Below are positions 27,517 to 33,206 of a DNA stretch of 64,000 nt, piece by piece. How positions within the stretch are numbered: position 1 is the stretch's first letter; each line of letters starts with the position of its first letter. The position numbers were made by a program, and so were the translations under genes. Below the pieces are notes generated by a model, which worked only from the letters and a program-made list of their open reading frames with translations, did not search any database and had not been told where the DNA came from. Source of the DNA: Nonomuraea dietziae (GTDB taxonomy: Bacteria > Actinomycetota > Actinomycetes > Streptosporangiales > Streptosporangiaceae); contig NZ_JACIBV010000001.1 in the NCBI RefSeq assembly GCF_014195505.1, positions 7,998,001-8,062,000 on the forward strand, read 5' to 3'.

Positions 27517-27530
27517 TATATTCCTCCAAG
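27517..27530 (+). promoter_or_regulatory. -10 element of the pucR-like gene
   Basis: TATATT at 27517-27522 lies 7 bases before the GTG start at 27530, so transcription probably begins at or next to the start codon. No RBS is visible, which fits a leaderless mRNA. No convincing -35 is present. Confidence 0.35.
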
Positions 27531-29039
27531 TGCGCATCAGGGACCTGCTCGCCGCCTCCGAACTCGGCCTCACCCTGCTCGTGGGGGACGAGGACACCGA
27601 GTTCACCGCCGTGCACGTCACCGACCTGCCCGACCCCTGCCGCTACCTGACGGGTGGGGAGCTGGTGCTCAGCGGGCTGATGTGGCGGCACGAGCCCGCC
27701 GACTCGGCCCGCTTCGTCGCCGCCCTGCGCTCCTCGGGTGTCGCGGCGCTCGGCGCGGGACAAGCGTGGCTCGGTCACGTCCCTGACGACCTGGTGGAGG
27801 CGTGCGCGCAGGCGGGCCTGCCGCTGCTGGAGATCCCGACCGCCGTCTCCTTCCGCGTCGTCGGCGAGGTGGCGGCACCCCGGCTGTCCGGCGACGTCAG
27901 GGCCGCGCTCGGGCGTCAGCGCAGGATCGTCGACGCCGTGGCCGAGGGCGCCGACCTCGCCGACCTGTTCGCGCTCACCGCCGCCGAGCTCGGCGTCAGC
28001 GGCGCCGTCCTCTCCACCACGGGAGAGCTGGTCGTCGGCTCCGTGACCGATCCCGCACCGGAGCAGGCGCCCGCCCTTCCGCTCCGCCTGGCCCGCGCGT
28101 TCCTGTCGGCTCCCAGACTGCCCTGCGTCGCCGAGGGCCACACCCTGTTCGCCGTCGGCAGGGGACACCGCGCGGCAGGCTGGGCGCTGGCCTGCGAGGG
28201 CGACCTGCTCGGCCGCGCCGACCTCGGCTTCGAGCTGGCCGCCTGCGTCGCCCTCGAACGCACCAGGATGGAGGAGGGCAGAAGGGTCGAGCGCCGCCTG
28301 GTCGAGCAGCTCGTGAGCGCGGCCTTCGCGGCCGAGGCAGACCCGGCCGAGCTCAGCGCCAGGCTGCGGATGTGCGGGCTGGGGGCGGCCGAGCCGTACT
28401 CGGTGGTGACGGCGACGGCCGCGCGCCCTGGGGCCACCCGCGGGCCCGACCCCGCCACGCTGGGCGGCCAGGTCCTGGAGGAGCTGCTGGGCCGCAGCGT
28501 CGTGGCCGCCGCGGGCGCGGACGGCGCCGTCGCCCTCGTCGCGCTGCAGGGCCCGGTCCCCGTGCTGGCCGACCGCCTGCGCTCAGGTCTCGAGGTGCTG
28601 TCGGTCCTCAGGGACACCAGGGTCTCCATCGGCGTGAGCGGCGCCCTCACCGGCGCGGCGGCGATCAGGGGCGGCGTCGAGGAGGCCGGCCACGCCCGCA
28701 GGCTGGCCGAGGCCCCGCTCGGGCGGGGTGGTCACCAGCGACGAGATCTACACCCACGCGCTCCTGCTGGCCACCGTGCCGGGCGACGTGCGCCGCTCGT
28801 TCGCCCACCGGCTGCTCGCGCCGCTGTTCGACTACGACGCGGGGCACCAGTCGGAGCTGGTGCGCACCCTCGGCACCTTCCTGGACACGGCGGGGTCGTG
28901 GAACGCCTGCGCCGAGCGGATGCACGTCCACGTGAACACCGTCAGGTACCGGATCAGGCGGATCGAGGAGCTGACCGGAAGGGATCTGTCGACGATGGCC
29001 GACAGGGTGGACTTCTTCCTGGCCCTGCGGTCAGGCTGA
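27530..29039 (+). pseudogene. pucR: PucR-family transcriptional regulator, frameshifted
   Basis: The first ~400 codons encode a PucR regulator: N-terminal purine catabolism domain (MRIRDLLAASELGLTLLVG, 1-19; GGELVLSGLMW, about 43-53) and a GGDEF-like middle region. At 28724-28727 a GGGG run shifts the frame; the true C-terminus (VVTSDEIYTHALLLATVPGD, then the HTH_30 helix HVHVNTVRYRIRRIEELTG) continues one frame over, to 29039. Dropping one G restores LGRVVTSDE, as in relatives. The product as written would lack DNA binding. It is divergent from the xanthine dehydrogenase gene, which it would regulate. A sequencing error in the G run is a real alternative. Confidence 0.85.
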
Positions 29040-29046
29040 CAGCCGT

Positions 29047-29077
29047 AAGCCCCCGAAATATGAGCATTCGGGGGCTT
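29047..29077. terminator. Bidirectional terminator between pucR-like and peptide genes
   Basis: A perfect 11-bp stem (29047-29057 with 29067-29077) with a 9-base loop lies between two convergent genes. The outer AA/TT pairs give short A/T tails in both directions. Confidence 0.8.
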
Positions 29078-29112: not shown

Positions 29113-29244
29113 CTAGCAGCAGAGGTAGTCGAAGCTCGAACGAGCAGGAGACACTTCGGCACCTGCGGTCGTAACATTGCCTCCAACTGTGGCAATTGCC
29201 GCGATGAAGACAGCGAGTGCGGACATGACAAGACGCTTGCGCAT
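29113..29244 (-). CDS. Small secreted peptide precursor (43 aa)
   Basis: A 43-residue precursor. It has a basic N-terminus (MRKR), a hydrophobic core (LVMSALAVFIAAIATVGG) and a signal-peptidase I site TTAGA before Glu30. The predicted product is EVSPARSSFDYLCC (14 residues), ending in a vicinal Cys pair. ATG 29244 is preceded by a GAGGGAG RBS at 29253-29259 (minus strand). Codon use has far more A/T at third positions than neighbouring genes. It is divergent from an XRE-TPR regulator, with only 58 bases between the two starts, so the two are probably a unit. Candidate roles are a signalling peptide sensed by that regulator or a Cu-binding peptide, since CopC/CopD genes lie beyond the regulator. 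No family was recognised. Confidence 0.72.
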   Translation of the reverse strand: MRKRLVMSALAVFIAAIATVGGNVTTAGAEVSPARSSFDYLCC

Positions 29245-29302
29245 GGGGGGTTCTCCCTCGCTCAGGTGGTGCTTGGCTTCATCATCCCAGGGAGACATTG
29301 CT

Positions 29303-30586
29303 GTGACCACATCTGACCTGGTCGGGCTGCGCATCAAGACAGTCCGCCGCCAGCGGGGGCTCTCACAGGCCCAGCTCGCTCACCCTGAGTTGTCTGACAG
29401 TTATGTCTCTCTGATCGAGAGCGGCAAGCGTACTCCAACACCTGCGGTGCTCGAGCTCCTGGCCCAGAAGCTGGACTGCTCGCTCAGCTACCTCGTCAAC
29501 GGCGTCACCGCCGAGCAGATGAACGACATCGAGCTCGGCCTTGGCTACGCGCGGCTCGCCCTGGAGAACGGCGAGGTCCACGAGGCCCGGACCAGGTTCG
29601 CCGAGCTCCTTGCGGACAACAACCTGGCGGGTTTGACCGCTCTTCGTCAAGAGGCCGAGTACGGCCTGGCCCTGGCGACGGAGGCGACAGGCGACCTCAG
29701 CCAGGCCATCGAGATCCTCAGGCGGCTCGACGCCGAGGAGCTCAGCGCCGACCGTCACGTCGAGATCGCGCTGGCCCTGTGCCGCTGCCACCGCGACAAG
29801 GGCGACCTGGTCGCGGCCGTGGAGGTCGGCGAGCGGATCCTGTCCGGCGCCGTCCGTCCCGCGTGGACCGACGGCCTGGTCGAGCTGGGGGCCACCCTGC
29901 TCGCGGCCTACTGGGTGCGCGGCGACCTGCTGCGCGCCCGTCAGTTCTCCGCCGAGCTGCTGGCCGCGGCCGAGCTCCTCGGCACGCCCCGCGCGACGGT
30001 GGCGGCCAGCTGGAACGCCGCGAGGGTCGCCGAGTCCGTGGGCAGGGGCGAGGAGGCGCTGGCCCTGGTGGAGCGCGCCTACGCCATCCAGTCCGAGACC
30101 GGCGCCCCCCGCAACCTGGCCAGACTGCGCGGTGCCGTGGCGGGCCACCACGCGCGGCTCAACCCGCAGAACACCGACAAGCTGAGGGAGCTGTTCGGCC
30201 AGACGCTCAGAGACGTGGCGGAGAGCTCGGCCGGCGTGACCGACCAGGCCATCGCGGAGCTCGAGCTGGCCAAGGTCGAGCTGACGGCAGGCCGCCTCGA
30301 GCTTGCCATCGAGCACGCCAGGGCGGCCGACGGGCTCCTGGCCGCCGAGACCCCCGAGCTCGACGCCCAGGGACGGATGATCCTCGCCAGGGCGCAGGGC
30401 GCGCTGGGCGACAGGGAGCAGGGGCTGGCCAGCGCCCGCGAGGCGCTGCGGTTCATGCAGCAGTCGCCCGCCTCGCGCCAGGCCGCGGGCAAGTGGTACG
30501 CCCTCGCCGAGACCATCGACGAACTCGGCGACGAGGAGCGTGCCGTCGAGGCGTACCAGCAGGCGCTCGCCTGCGTCGGGCTGTAG
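29303..30586 (+). CDS. XRE-family regulator with TPR domain
   Basis: A 427-residue cytoplasmic protein. The N-terminal XRE HTH (about 6-62) includes RIKTVRRQRGLSQAQLA and SDSYVSLIESGKRTPTP. The remaining ~360 residues are repeated helix pairs of the TPR type (for example ELGLGYARLALENGEVHEA, about 79-97, to the final RAVEAYQQALACVGL). HTH plus TPR is the layout of peptide-sensing RRNPP regulators (PlcR, NprR, Rgg), known mainly from Firmicutes, but also of unrelated actinomycete regulators. GTG 29303 has an AGGGAGA RBS at 29289-29295; the frame is open upstream but overlaps the peptide gene. The HTH codons have lower GC at third positions than the TPR part. Confidence 0.88.
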   Translation: MTTSDLVGLRIKTVRRQRGLSQAQLAHPELSDSYVSLIESGKRTPTPAVLELLAQKLDCSLSYLVNGVTAEQMNDIELGLGYARLALENGEVHEARTRFAELLADNNLAGLTALRQEAEYGLALATEATGDLSQAIEILRRLDAEELSADRHVEIALALCRCHRDKGDLVAAVEVGERILSGAVRPAWTDGLVELGATLLAAYWVRGDLLRARQFSAELLAAAELLGTPRATVAASWNAARVAESVGRGEEALALVERAYAIQSETGAPRNLARLRGAVAGHHARLNPQNTDKLRELFGQTLRDVAESSAGVTDQAIAELELAKVELTAGRLELAIEHARAADGLLAAETPELDAQGRMILARAQGALGDREQGLASAREALRFMQQSPASRQAAGKWYALAETIDELGDEERAVEAYQQALACVGL

Positions 30587-30630: not shown

Positions 30631-31218
30631 ATGAACAGATCCCCACGCGCGGCCCTCACCGCCCTGCTCGCCGCCCTGGTCGCCGCCGTCGTCCTGGCGC
30701 CGCCCGCACTGGCCCACGACGCCCTGAAGAGCAGCAACCCGAAGAAGGACGCCACCGTCAAGAAGGTGGACCAGGTCGAGCTGGAGTTCACCGCGGCTCC
30801 GAAGCTGCCCTTCGTGATCGTGCGCGATGCCGACGGCACCGAGCAGCAGCTGGGCAAGCCCGAGATCGACGGCCCCGTCGTGACGCAGAAGCTCAAGGGC
30901 ACGCTGTCCGACGGCGCCTACACGATCGCCTACAGGGTCGTCTCCTCCGACGGGCATCCCATCGAGGGTGAGATCCCGTTCAAGGTCAAGGGCGCGCCGC
31001 AGGCGACCCCGACCGAGGAGCCCACGCCCACGGCCGCCGTCAGTGAGAGCGCCCAGCCCAGCGCGACGGCCTCAGCCGCGCCCGTCGCCCAGCCGAGCGA
31101 GCAGGCGGCCGAGCAGGACAGCGCGCCCGGCTTCCCGATCTGGCTCATCATCGTGATCGGCGCCCTCGTCGGCGTCGGCATCGGCTTCCTGCTGAGCGCG
31201 AGGAAGAAGAAGCCGTGA
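30631..31218 (+). CDS. copC: CopC-domain copper-binding protein
   Basis: A 195-residue exported protein. The signal peptide ends ALA (residues 26-28), so the mature chain begins HDALKSSNPK, the classic CopC N-terminus whose His1 binds Cu(II). The CopC beta-barrel spans about 29-125 (VVSSDGHPIEGEIPFKV near its end, with a second His). A Pro/Thr/Ala/Ser linker and a C-terminal TM anchor (about 169-190) with a KKK end follow. It should bind copper outside the membrane and pass it to CopD. GGGGG RBS is at about 30621. Its stop overlaps the GTG of copD. Confidence 0.92.
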   Translation: MNRSPRAALTALLAALVAAVVLAPPALAHDALKSSNPKKDATVKKVDQVELEFTAAPKLPFVIVRDADGTEQQLGKPEIDGPVVTQKLKGTLSDGAYTIAYRVVSSDGHPIEGEIPFKVKGAPQATPTEEPTPTAAVSESAQPSATASAAPVAQPSEQAAEQDSAPGFPIWLIIVIGALVGVGIGFLLSARKKKP

Positions 31219-33206
31219 CCAGGACCGCCCGTCTGGCACTGGCGTTGACGGCCGCGGCGCTCGCCGCGCTGGTCGCCGCCATGATCGCTGGAGGCGCGGC
31301 GTTCCCGCGCATCATCCCCGGCCTGCCGGACGAGGGCACGCTGACCAGATGGGCGCTACCCGTCTCGAAGCTGGCGATGGACGTCGCGGGCCTGCTCACC
31401 GTGGGCCTCCTGCTGACCGCCACCGCCTTCCTGCCCAACGACAAGGGGCTGCTCGGCACGTCCGCTCTGGGCTACGTCAAGGCCGCCTCCTGGACGGCGC
31501 TGGTCTGGGCGGGGGCGGGCGCGCTCACGATGGTGTTCACCCTGTCGGAGACGCTCGGGCTGCCGGTGGCGGACGTGCTCGGCGGCAACGAGCTGACCAG
31601 CTTCGCCAGCCAGGTGGGCCAGGGCATCGCGCTGACCCTGGTGGTCCTGTTCGGCGTGTCCATCGCGCTGTTCTCGCGGGGGGCGATCACGGCCGGCGCG
31701 TCGGCGGGGCTGCTGGCGCTCGCCCTGGTCACGCTGCTGCCGCCCGCCCTGACCAGTCACGCCTCCTCCTCGCCCAACCACGACCTGGCCACCACGGGCG
31801 TCGCGGTCCACCTGATCTCGCTGGCGCTGTGGGTCGGCGGCCTGACCGTGCTCGTGACCCACGGGATGCGCAAGCAGCCGCAGCTGGAGGTGGCGGCGGC
31901 CCGCTTCTCCAGGATGGCGGTGTGGTGCTACGTCGGCGTCGGCCTGTCGGGCGTCTTCAGCGTGCTGGCCAGGCTGACCGCGATCAGCGACCTCTGGACC
32001 TCCCCCTACGGCGTGCTCCTCGTCGTCAAGACCGTCGCCTTCGTCCTGCTCGGCTACGTCGGCTGGTGGCACCGCCAGCGCACGATGGGCGAGCTGGCCA
32101 AGGGCAAGCCCGGCGCGTTCACCCGGCTGGCGGTCGGCGAGCTGGTCCTGATGTTCGCGACCATGGGCCTGGCCGTCGCGCTGGCCCGCACCCAGCCGCC
32201 CGCGGTGACCCTGCCCGCCGACCGCGCCTTCGAGCTGCTCGGCTTCCCGATGCCGCCGCCGATCACGCTCGGCAACCTGGCCTCGCTGTGGTGGCTCGAC
32301 CTGTTCTTCGCGCTGGTCGCCGCCGCGCTGGCCGGCCTGTACGCCGGAGGCGTCATCAGGCTGCGCCGCCGGGGCGACGCCTGGCCGGCGGGCCGTACCG
32401 CCGCCTGGTTCGTCGGCGTGGTGATCCTGGTGCTGGCCACGCAGAGCGGCATGGCCCGCTACGCCCAGGTGCTGTTCAGCGTGCACATGATCGAGCACAT
32501 GACGCTGGCGATGCTGGTGCCGATCTTCCTGGTCCTCGGCGCCCCCGTCACGCTGGCGCTGCGCGCGCTCAAGCCCGCCGCCCGACGCGGCGACAGGGGG
32601 CCGCGCGAGTGGCTGAACGTCGTGCTGCACAGCGCCTTCGTCCGGGTGCTCACCCACCCGGCGGTCGCCACGACGATCTTCATCGTCTCGACCTACGCGC
32701 TCTACTTCACGCCGCTGTTCGGCGCGGCGATGGAGGAGCATCTCGGGCACATCGTGATGACGCTGCACTTCCTGCTGAGCGGCTCGCTGTTCTTCTGGGT
32801 GATCATCGGCGTGGACCCGGCCCCGCACAAGCTGCCGCACGTGGGCCGCCTGCTGACGCTCTTCGTCACGATGCCCTTCCACGCCTTCTTCGGCATCGCG
32901 CTGATGATGATGGGCACCGTGATCGCCTCCGACTGGTACGAGCAGCTCGGCCGCACGTGGGGCGTCTCGCCGCTGCTCGACCAGCAGGACGGCGGCGCCA
33001 TCGCCTGGGGCTTCGGCGAGATCCCGACCTTGATCGTGCTGCTGGCACTGGCCTTCCAGTGGTATCGCGACGACGACAGGAGGGCGCGCACGGCCGACAG
33101 GAGGGCCGACGCGGTCGCCGCCCGCACCGGCGGCAGCGGCGACGCGGAGCTCGATTCCTACAACGACTACCTGGCCAAGCTGAACAGACGCGACCAGGTC
33201 GAGTAG
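31215..33206 (+). CDS. CopD - cytochrome c oxidase assembly factor (CtaG-like) fusion
   Basis: A 663-residue polytopic protein. The N-terminal half (about 1-330) is a CopD domain with His-rich TM segments (LTSHASSSPNHDLATTGVAVHLISLALWVGG, about 178-208). The C-terminal half (about 345-630) is the caa3_CtaG domain: FSVHMIEHMTLAMLVPIF (about 418-435), LTHPAVATTIF, LHFLLSGSLFFW (about 516-527) and HAFFGIALMMMG (about 556-567). It would import copper and supply it to cytochrome oxidase. This fusion is common in actinomycetes. GTG 31215 overlaps the copC stop. Confidence 0.93.
   Translation: MTRTARLALALTAAALAALVAAMIAGGAAFPRIIPGLPDEGTLTRWALPVSKLAMDVAGLLTVGLLLTATAFLPNDKGLLGTSALGYVKAASWTALVWAGAGALTMVFTLSETLGLPVADVLGGNELTSFASQVGQGIALTLVVLFGVSIALFSRGAITAGASAGLLALALVTLLPPALTSHASSSPNHDLATTGVAVHLISLALWVGGLTVLVTHGMRKQPQLEVAAARFSRMAVWCYVGVGLSGVFSVLARLTAISDLWTSPYGVLLVVKTVAFVLLGYVGWWHRQRTMGELAKGKPGAFTRLAVGELVLMFATMGLAVALARTQPPAVTLPADRAFELLGFPMPPPITLGNLASLWWLDLFFALVAAALAGLYAGGVIRLRRRGDAWPAGRTAAWFVGVVILVLATQSGMARYAQVLFSVHMIEHMTLAMLVPIFLVLGAPVTLALRALKPAARRGDRGPREWLNVVLHSAFVRVLTHPAVATTIFIVSTYALYFTPLFGAAMEEHLGHIVMTLHFLLSGSLFFWVIIGVDPAPHKLPHVGRLLTLFVTMPFHAFFGIALMMMGTVIASDWYEQLGRTWGVSPLLDQQDGGAIAWGFGEIPTLIVLLALAFQWYRDDDRRARTADRRADAVAARTGGSGDAELDSYNDYLAKLNRRDQVE

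Follow-up and report, generated by a model that had tools for sequence, protein, structure and literature searches.

We identified in Nonomuraea dietziae a conserved pair of adjacent genes, one encoding a short precursor with the anatomy of a secreted peptide and the other a divergently transcribed XRE helix-turn-helix (HTH) regulator with TPRs. The peptide tail and the receptor differ jointly in one clade. Together, the two genes represent a candidate actinobacterial peptide-signaling family, most members of which carry a dicysteine tag at the C terminus. Judged from sequence, we consider it probable that they form an RRNPP-like pair of a secreted peptide and its TPR receptor, with the conserved Cys-Cys end as part of the signal. 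Intracellular peptide-pheromone receptors have so far been described for Bacillota. The gene pair supplies candidate receptors, their peptide sequences and a naturally occurring putative specificity variant for experiments in lineages including antibiotic producers. As a signal tag, a conserved Cys-Cys end would be out of the ordinary and might undergo redox or metal chemistry. The pair lies within a 64,000-nt stretch of DNA, analyzed as a whole and termed the window here, from a genome of 10.2 Mb (Table 1).

The precursor open reading frame (ORF) proposed in the initial annotation was recovered exactly, including its signal peptide, its 14-residue product and its ribosome-binding site (RBS), GAGGGAG, which is located 8 nt 5′ of the ATG. 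The translation of the window reads MRKRLVMSALAVFIAAIATVGGNVTTAGAEVSPARSSFDYLCC, and cleavage at the AxA site is predicted to release the 14 C-terminal residues. Precursor lengths ranged from 40 to 57 aa across 81 loci, with start codons chosen by us, and the peptide matched no family in Pfam or NCBIfam. The regulator on the other strand, likewise confirmed as an HTH plus TPR protein, contains HTH_3 (5.6e-13) and TPR_16 (34.3 bits against a cutoff of 32.7) domains, both above the Pfam cutoffs. Its AlphaFold (AF2) model is nearly all helical, with a mean pLDDT of 90.1, and its Foldseek matches are TPR superhelices. The ‘inverted pair’ that the two RBS sequences had been suggested to form has no special meaning; these are just two ribosome-binding sites on opposite strands, and both differ in sequence between genera.

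Table 1 Features of the peptide–regulator locus, in window coordinates
Feature	Position	Strand	Basis or remark
Inverted repeat GCCCCCGAA...TTCGGGGGC, between the convergent PucR-type gene and the peptide gene	29049..29075	.	Direct reading
Precursor peptide gene, 43 aa	29113..29244	-	Signal peptide 1-29, AxA site, predicted mature tail EVSPARSSFDYLCC
DNA element CGTAACATT (consensus CGTANCATT) within signal-peptide codons 23-25	29170..29178	+	Third-base locking
Divergent intergenic region, 58 nt	29245..29302	.	RBS of both genes: GAGGGAG on -, AGGGAG on +
XRE helix-turn-helix and TPR regulator, 427 aa, GTG start, proposed peptide receptor	29303..30586	+	Pfam, profile match, AF2
Regulator codons 194-238 (194, 198, 230, 233, 234, 238), proposed tail pocket	29882..30016	+	Co-change, AF2 helices
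CopC-domain protein	30631..31218	+	44 nt downstream of regulator; PF04234 5.7e-21
CopD-CtaG fusion (copper import / caa3 oxidase assembly)	31215..33206	+	Pfam; conserved downstream neighbor

A regulator homolog (E ≤ 1e-60) was present in 119/200 genomes of the GTDB family and is, therefore, common but not universal there. From 118 relatives detected in a scan of genome contigs, we kept 80 named loci of Nonomuraea and related genera, all of which we take to be Streptosporangiaceae. At all 80, an ORF encoding a signal peptide is divergent from the regulator and starts 50–67 nt away from it, where the ORFs of four Acrocarpospora loci are tabulated with a longer start and the distances for four Microbispora loci (L068, L075, L077 and L085) run to the first matched residue rather than to the start codon. 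Conservation of the small ORF beside orthologous regulators, set beforehand as the test of the proposal, hence held at every locus (80/80). The peptide ends in Cys-Cys at 75 of these loci. The other five, four from Streptosporangium and one from Planomonospora, carry the tails WSYPD, WNHPD or WNHPG (W-x-x-P-D/G, hereafter WxxPD), endings that were admitted to our ORF pattern (PD/PG) only after they had been spotted by eye. A further 29 loci (L086–L114), of which the 13 on the plus strand gave a peptide and 16 lie on the minus strand, enter none of the counts. Application of an automatic filter (ORF of 30–90 aa, hydrophobic, CC end) to 732 kb of the loci returned 63 CC-ended ORFs beside the regulator; the single hit at another position was a longer reading of that locus’s own peptide. 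The pairing of peptide and regulator is not due to chance.

The 76 CC peptides, including that of the window, share a conserved leader, with A29 of the AxA site present in 57 of the 62 peptides of common leader length, while positions −10 to −3 are hypervariable (3.2–3.7 bits entropy). For 16 disjoint pairs of closely related CC peptides, dN/dS was 0.56 for the leader versus 0.71 for the variable tail. In the same pairs, the Cys-Cys codons showed three synonymous and no non-synonymous differences; the dicysteine is, therefore, maintained as protein, and selection acts on it at this level. Tandem Cys codons at the end of an ORF could also belong to a cysteine-codon leader that works in cis and not as a peptide, and attenuators of this type are known from actinobacteria. 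For the ORF studied here, such a role is extremely improbable: it encodes a conserved signal peptide, lacks the Cys codons at five loci and, in part of the other families, lies convergent and downstream of the regulator. The gene layout in the window led us to reject the cysteine-codon leader: beyond a hairpin, the neighboring gene on that side is convergent, and a co-directional target downstream of the ORF is thus lacking.

Related pairs were also found in other families of the class, extending what had been a single instance. Among 24 further regulators from other genera of the family and own-genome paralogs (31–60% identity), 12 are accompanied by a CC-ended secreted peptide, one by a convergent peptide ending in CCYE and 11 by none; these counts exclude L133a, which is the same locus as L052 and is still contained in the 36 regulators of the 198/234 comparison below. 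One lineage at 42–44% identity has the common tail GPRVHCC. Ten further home-family homologs of other types were without a CC-type peptide. Eight regulators from related genera (L115–L120, L123 and L126) have the domain order and no CC-peptide within 900 nt; T198 is missing from six of them, and position 238 is Glu rather than Asn in every one. A search of the class detected homologs (E ≤ 1e-45) in 65/394 genomes, 46 of which, with 52 matches, lie outside the home family. We inspected 28 of these 52 for peptides. A CC-type secreted peptide is encoded no more than 450 nt from the regulator in 22 of the 28, which represent eight GTDB families; its gene is divergent from the regulator or follows it downstream in convergent orientation, and one of the 22 peptides ends in CCLV. 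Within eight plasmid or phage records, a CC peptide was found in two, from Nonomuraea gerenzanensis and from one of five Streptomyces plasmids. Counting the home family, eight others and, via one plasmid, Streptomycetaceae, the pair occurs in ten actinobacterial families. In a sample of the phylum (396 genomes, E ≤ 1e-60), the only matches beyond the genome itself came from two genomes of one other family. For two genomes of out-of-family group f21, the nearest 16S record in the plasmid collection was Tsukamurella (92.5% and 91.6%), and for one genome of group f27, Pseudarthrobacter and Streptomyces records from this collection tied at 89.4%. Spread by phages was considered and dropped, as no relative was confirmed in viral contigs; one partial phage-labeled contig had no CC-peptide.

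Several loci depart from the simple one-to-one arrangement. A second pair in the N. dietziae genome (L232, G000:C1:286000-300000) comprises a regulator of 36% identity (G000:C1:292084-293382, − strand) and the tail VGAVGNHCC; contig C3 carries a near-identical copy of this regulator without a peptide linked to it. Locus L133 (G121:C31:63000-68900) contains two tandem regulator–peptide pairs with the tails DIFCC and APRCC, as expected of duplicated signaling channels. At L167 (G469:C1:1344600-1348400), two CC-ended peptides flank one regulator, GMFCC being divergent and SLYCC convergent downstream.

We compared the receptors of the two tail classes using the 81 aligned regulators. With the five WxxPD loci set aside, 158 columns are ≥90% conserved, and seven of them (176, 194, 198, 230, 233, 234 and 238) are changed in 5/5 WxxPD regulators. 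Six of the seven fall within 190–240, a segment with 29 of the 158 conserved columns (hypergeometric 1.5e-4; 2.2e-3 with TPR columns only), in a test that, like those on TPR positions 2 and 6 and on residues 198 and 234, was devised after the positions were known. None of the 58 conserved HTH columns is changed. In the AlphaFold model, residues 194 and 198 are located on helix 190–206 and residues 230, 233, 234 and 238 on helix 229–245, which we read as successive TPR A-helices; by the TPR numbering that we assume, 194/198 and 234/238 would be positions 2 and 6 and line the groove. Ten other groupings of our choice gave 0–6 such changes each and 22 in total, only one of which (235) lies in 190–240. 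The co-change of tail and TPR residues fits a ligand–receptor relation.

The WxxPD clade is monophyletic with a stem of 0.31, that is, one evolutionary switch and a single contrast, and has diverged further than any other group in the comparison (mean identity 0.555 versus 0.577–0.604). The co-change of tail and groove could, therefore, reflect one long branch, with the genes being linked for some other reason. Consistent with such a coincidence, covariation inside the CC class is not focused: tail variation tracks the whole regulator (r 0.45), the chosen groove columns gave no focused signal (partial r 0.06, p 0.07), and random TPR column sets equalled or beat the groove set in 120/120 draws. 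We, nevertheless, regard coincidence as rather unlikely given the contrast between 0/58 conserved HTH columns and 6/29 columns in 190–240 and the near absence of changes in this segment for the ten other groupings. Its probability overlaps with those of the other alternatives and is not exclusive of them.

More distant regulators were examined at the positions of the proposed pocket. The combination of T, S or N at 198 with A, G or S at 234 occurs in 34/36 distant regulators with a CC-peptide versus 10/25 without one (n = 61, leaving out L002, L134, L171, L185–L188, L205, L209 and L212), where the distant regulators are not independent of each other. The combination is absent from L134, whose peptide ends in CCYE, and from two counted f27 regulators. 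For T198 alone, with the six most different peptide-less regulators excluded, the counts were 31/36 versus 9/19 (p 0.004). Of the seven positions, just 198 and 234 hold in distant CC-type regulators; 194 and 230 are free to vary and 238 is so in part, the GPRVHCC lineage having Glu at 238. These patterns also bear on a scenario in which the peptide has an effector role, perhaps as an antimicrobial or a surface peptide, and its gene is merely controlled by the regulator, without the peptide being the ligand. Divergent regulator–target pairs are common, and an arms race could explain the hypervariable tail. This scenario appears unlikely to us: tail class and TPR residues differ jointly with the conserved HTH columns fixed, the 198/234 signature tracks the presence of a CC-peptide, and none of the eight neighbor proteins scanned is a peptide-modification or immunity protein. 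A disulfide between the tail and regulator Cys162 was also considered; this cysteine is replaced in 9/30 close regulators and kept in 24/25 regulators without peptide, and the idea was, therefore, set aside.

In the PlcR–PapR system of the Bacillus cereus group, an XRE HTH plus TPR regulator adjoins a small exported precursor, the C-terminal peptide of which is the signal. The PapR tail presumably lacks Cys-Cys, unlike the CC peptides described here. NprR of the NprR–NprX system from the same group is, we assume, nearer to our regulator in size and repeat number than PlcR, with a different tail in NprX. In profile searches, PlcR was the best natural HTH plus TPR match (PDB 2qfc, E 4e-9), ranking below two engineered TPR proteins, a match that could stem from the shared HTH and TPR modules; NprR (PDB 4gpk, E 4e-4) matched more weakly and in the TPRs only. 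The PlcR chain comprises 293 aa and originates from Bacillota, whereas the regulator in this study comprises 427 aa and originates from Actinomycetes. In Foldseek, PapR7-bound PlcR (E 1.5e-6) appeared at rank 26 beneath generic TPR proteins, and the superposition was poor (rmsd 8.2 Å). A likeness to the TPR-like regulators of the NsdA family (NCBIfam NF053720) is limited to a weak profile match (E 2e-4); with 20.9 bits against a cutoff of 75, the regulator is not a member.

With the RRNPP/RRNPPA class, as described in excerpts of PMC10075063 and PMC9765709, the pair shares a small secreted propeptide, a TPR receptor of 250–500 aa and adjacent genes. These surveys, as far as the excerpts go, cover Firmicutes and, in one case, viruses, whereas our pair belongs to Actinomycetes and mostly has a C-terminal CC. 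It agrees with all five operational criteria for RRNPP systems in the excerpted text of PMC10075063: a propeptide of 10–100 aa (43 aa), Sec export (judged by anatomy only, from a basic n-region, a hydrophobic core and the AxA site), a receptor of 250–500 aa (427 aa), TPRs in the receptor (TPR_16, AF2 fold and Foldseek matches) and direct neighborhood of the genes (58-nt gap; 80/80 named loci). The suggestion of an actinobacterial RRNPP counterpart is, thus, supported on architecture. We, therefore, call the pair RRNPP-like in the operational sense, which carries no claim on descent. According to the same excerpts, the RRNPP_detector survey searched genomes of Firmicutes and viruses, and actinobacterial signals are typically enzyme-made small molecules (PMC10075063). 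Our literature search in open-licence papers returned no RRNPP-type system in Actinomycetota among the matches listed, and the available portion of PMC5431353 contains no mention of this locus.

In the RRNPP-like mechanism that we favor, the precursor would leave the cell through the Sec pathway and be cleaved by signal peptidase at the AxA site, as suggested by its anatomy. The resulting short tail, composed of species-specific residues followed by the near-universal Cys-Cys, would re-enter the cell via an oligopeptide permease. Uptake of a signaling oligopeptide by BldK has been linked to Streptomyces development in the excerpted text of PMC11303876. The N. dietziae genome encodes 26 SBP_bac_5 oligopeptide-binding proteins. 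Inside the cell, the tail may bind the TPR superhelix groove of the neighboring XRE regulator with its end near residues 194–238, a placement suggested by the co-change. Binding would then shift the DNA-binding state of the regulator and, in this way, control the divergent pair. Its effect would probably extend to other genes as well, among which the downstream CopC and CopD-CtaG genes may count in the home family. Only tentatively, as an idea that we ourselves find rather doubtful, do we extend this mechanism to a peptide-pheromone language of Actinomycetes spanning many families, in which the CC tag is read by dedicated XRE-TPR receptors and identity resides in the preceding residues. A side lineage would have exchanged the CC tag for W-x-x-P-D along with the receptor pocket. 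Because the tag can be a dithiol, a vicinal disulfide or a metal complex, the receptor may read the reduced form only, so that the signal would report neighbors together with redox or metal state.

Two copper-related genes follow the regulator in the window, and the CopC gene is possibly co-transcribed with it. CopD-CtaG was matched at 79/80 named loci, the contig of the 80th ending 478 nt past the regulator, whereas in distant regions CopD was found near the regulator in 3/20, once on the opposite strand, as judged with a simple ORF caller. The CopC and CopD-CtaG genes may, thus, be targets of the regulator in the home family, yet they lie outside the core pair. Vicinal cysteines can bind Cu(I), and, together with the near-constant CopD-CtaG neighbor, this property would suit a cassette that governs copper supply to cytochrome oxidase via CopC/CopD-CtaG, in which the CC tail binds extracellular Cu and the regulator responds to the metal-loaded peptide or to copper directly. 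Taken as a whole, we consider this copper scheme unlikely. The five cysteine-free tails (WSYPD, WNHPD or WNHPG) still adjoin CopD, and the residues that precede the CC are hypervariable. In addition to the scarcity of CopD in distant regions, the neighbors of other pairs are unrelated: those annotated for one f21 pair are EamA, aminotransferase and ribonucleotide reductase, and those of the second pair in the N. dietziae genome are an MFS transporter and isochorismatase. Cu binding as the general role of the peptide is not supported. The same applies to the initial annotation’s suggestion that the Cys pair could act as a Cu ligand or vicinal disulfide.

The leader of the peptide gene also contains a putative DNA element. 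The third base is T in 99% of loci at codon 23 and in 96% at codon 24, and codon 25 is ACG in 76/81 loci; among regulator codons 1–60 in 73 aligned loci, none has A or T as third base in >80%. On the regulator strand, the consensus CGTANCATT contains a TANCAT hexamer ~126 nt before the regulator start, and we read the element as the likely −10 of the regulator promoter or, alternatively, as an operator. The regulator promoter would, by this inference, sit inside the peptide gene, and both transcripts would overlap. A sigma-70 promoter scan called no promoter at the leader element, and an Rfam search gave no match. The longer form GGCAATGNTACGNC has just one other site in the genome, inside what reads as another gene, and no regulon can, therefore, be drawn; CGTANCAT was missing from 19/20 distant loci. 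At the far end of the peptide gene, the inverted repeat is a possible transcription stop, and a pattern scan called no terminator there. The adjacent PucR-type gene (27530-29039, + strand) extends over two frames, with the N part beginning at 27530 and the C-terminal HTH_30 at 28728-29039, and is, therefore, frameshifted either in the genome or by sequencing error.
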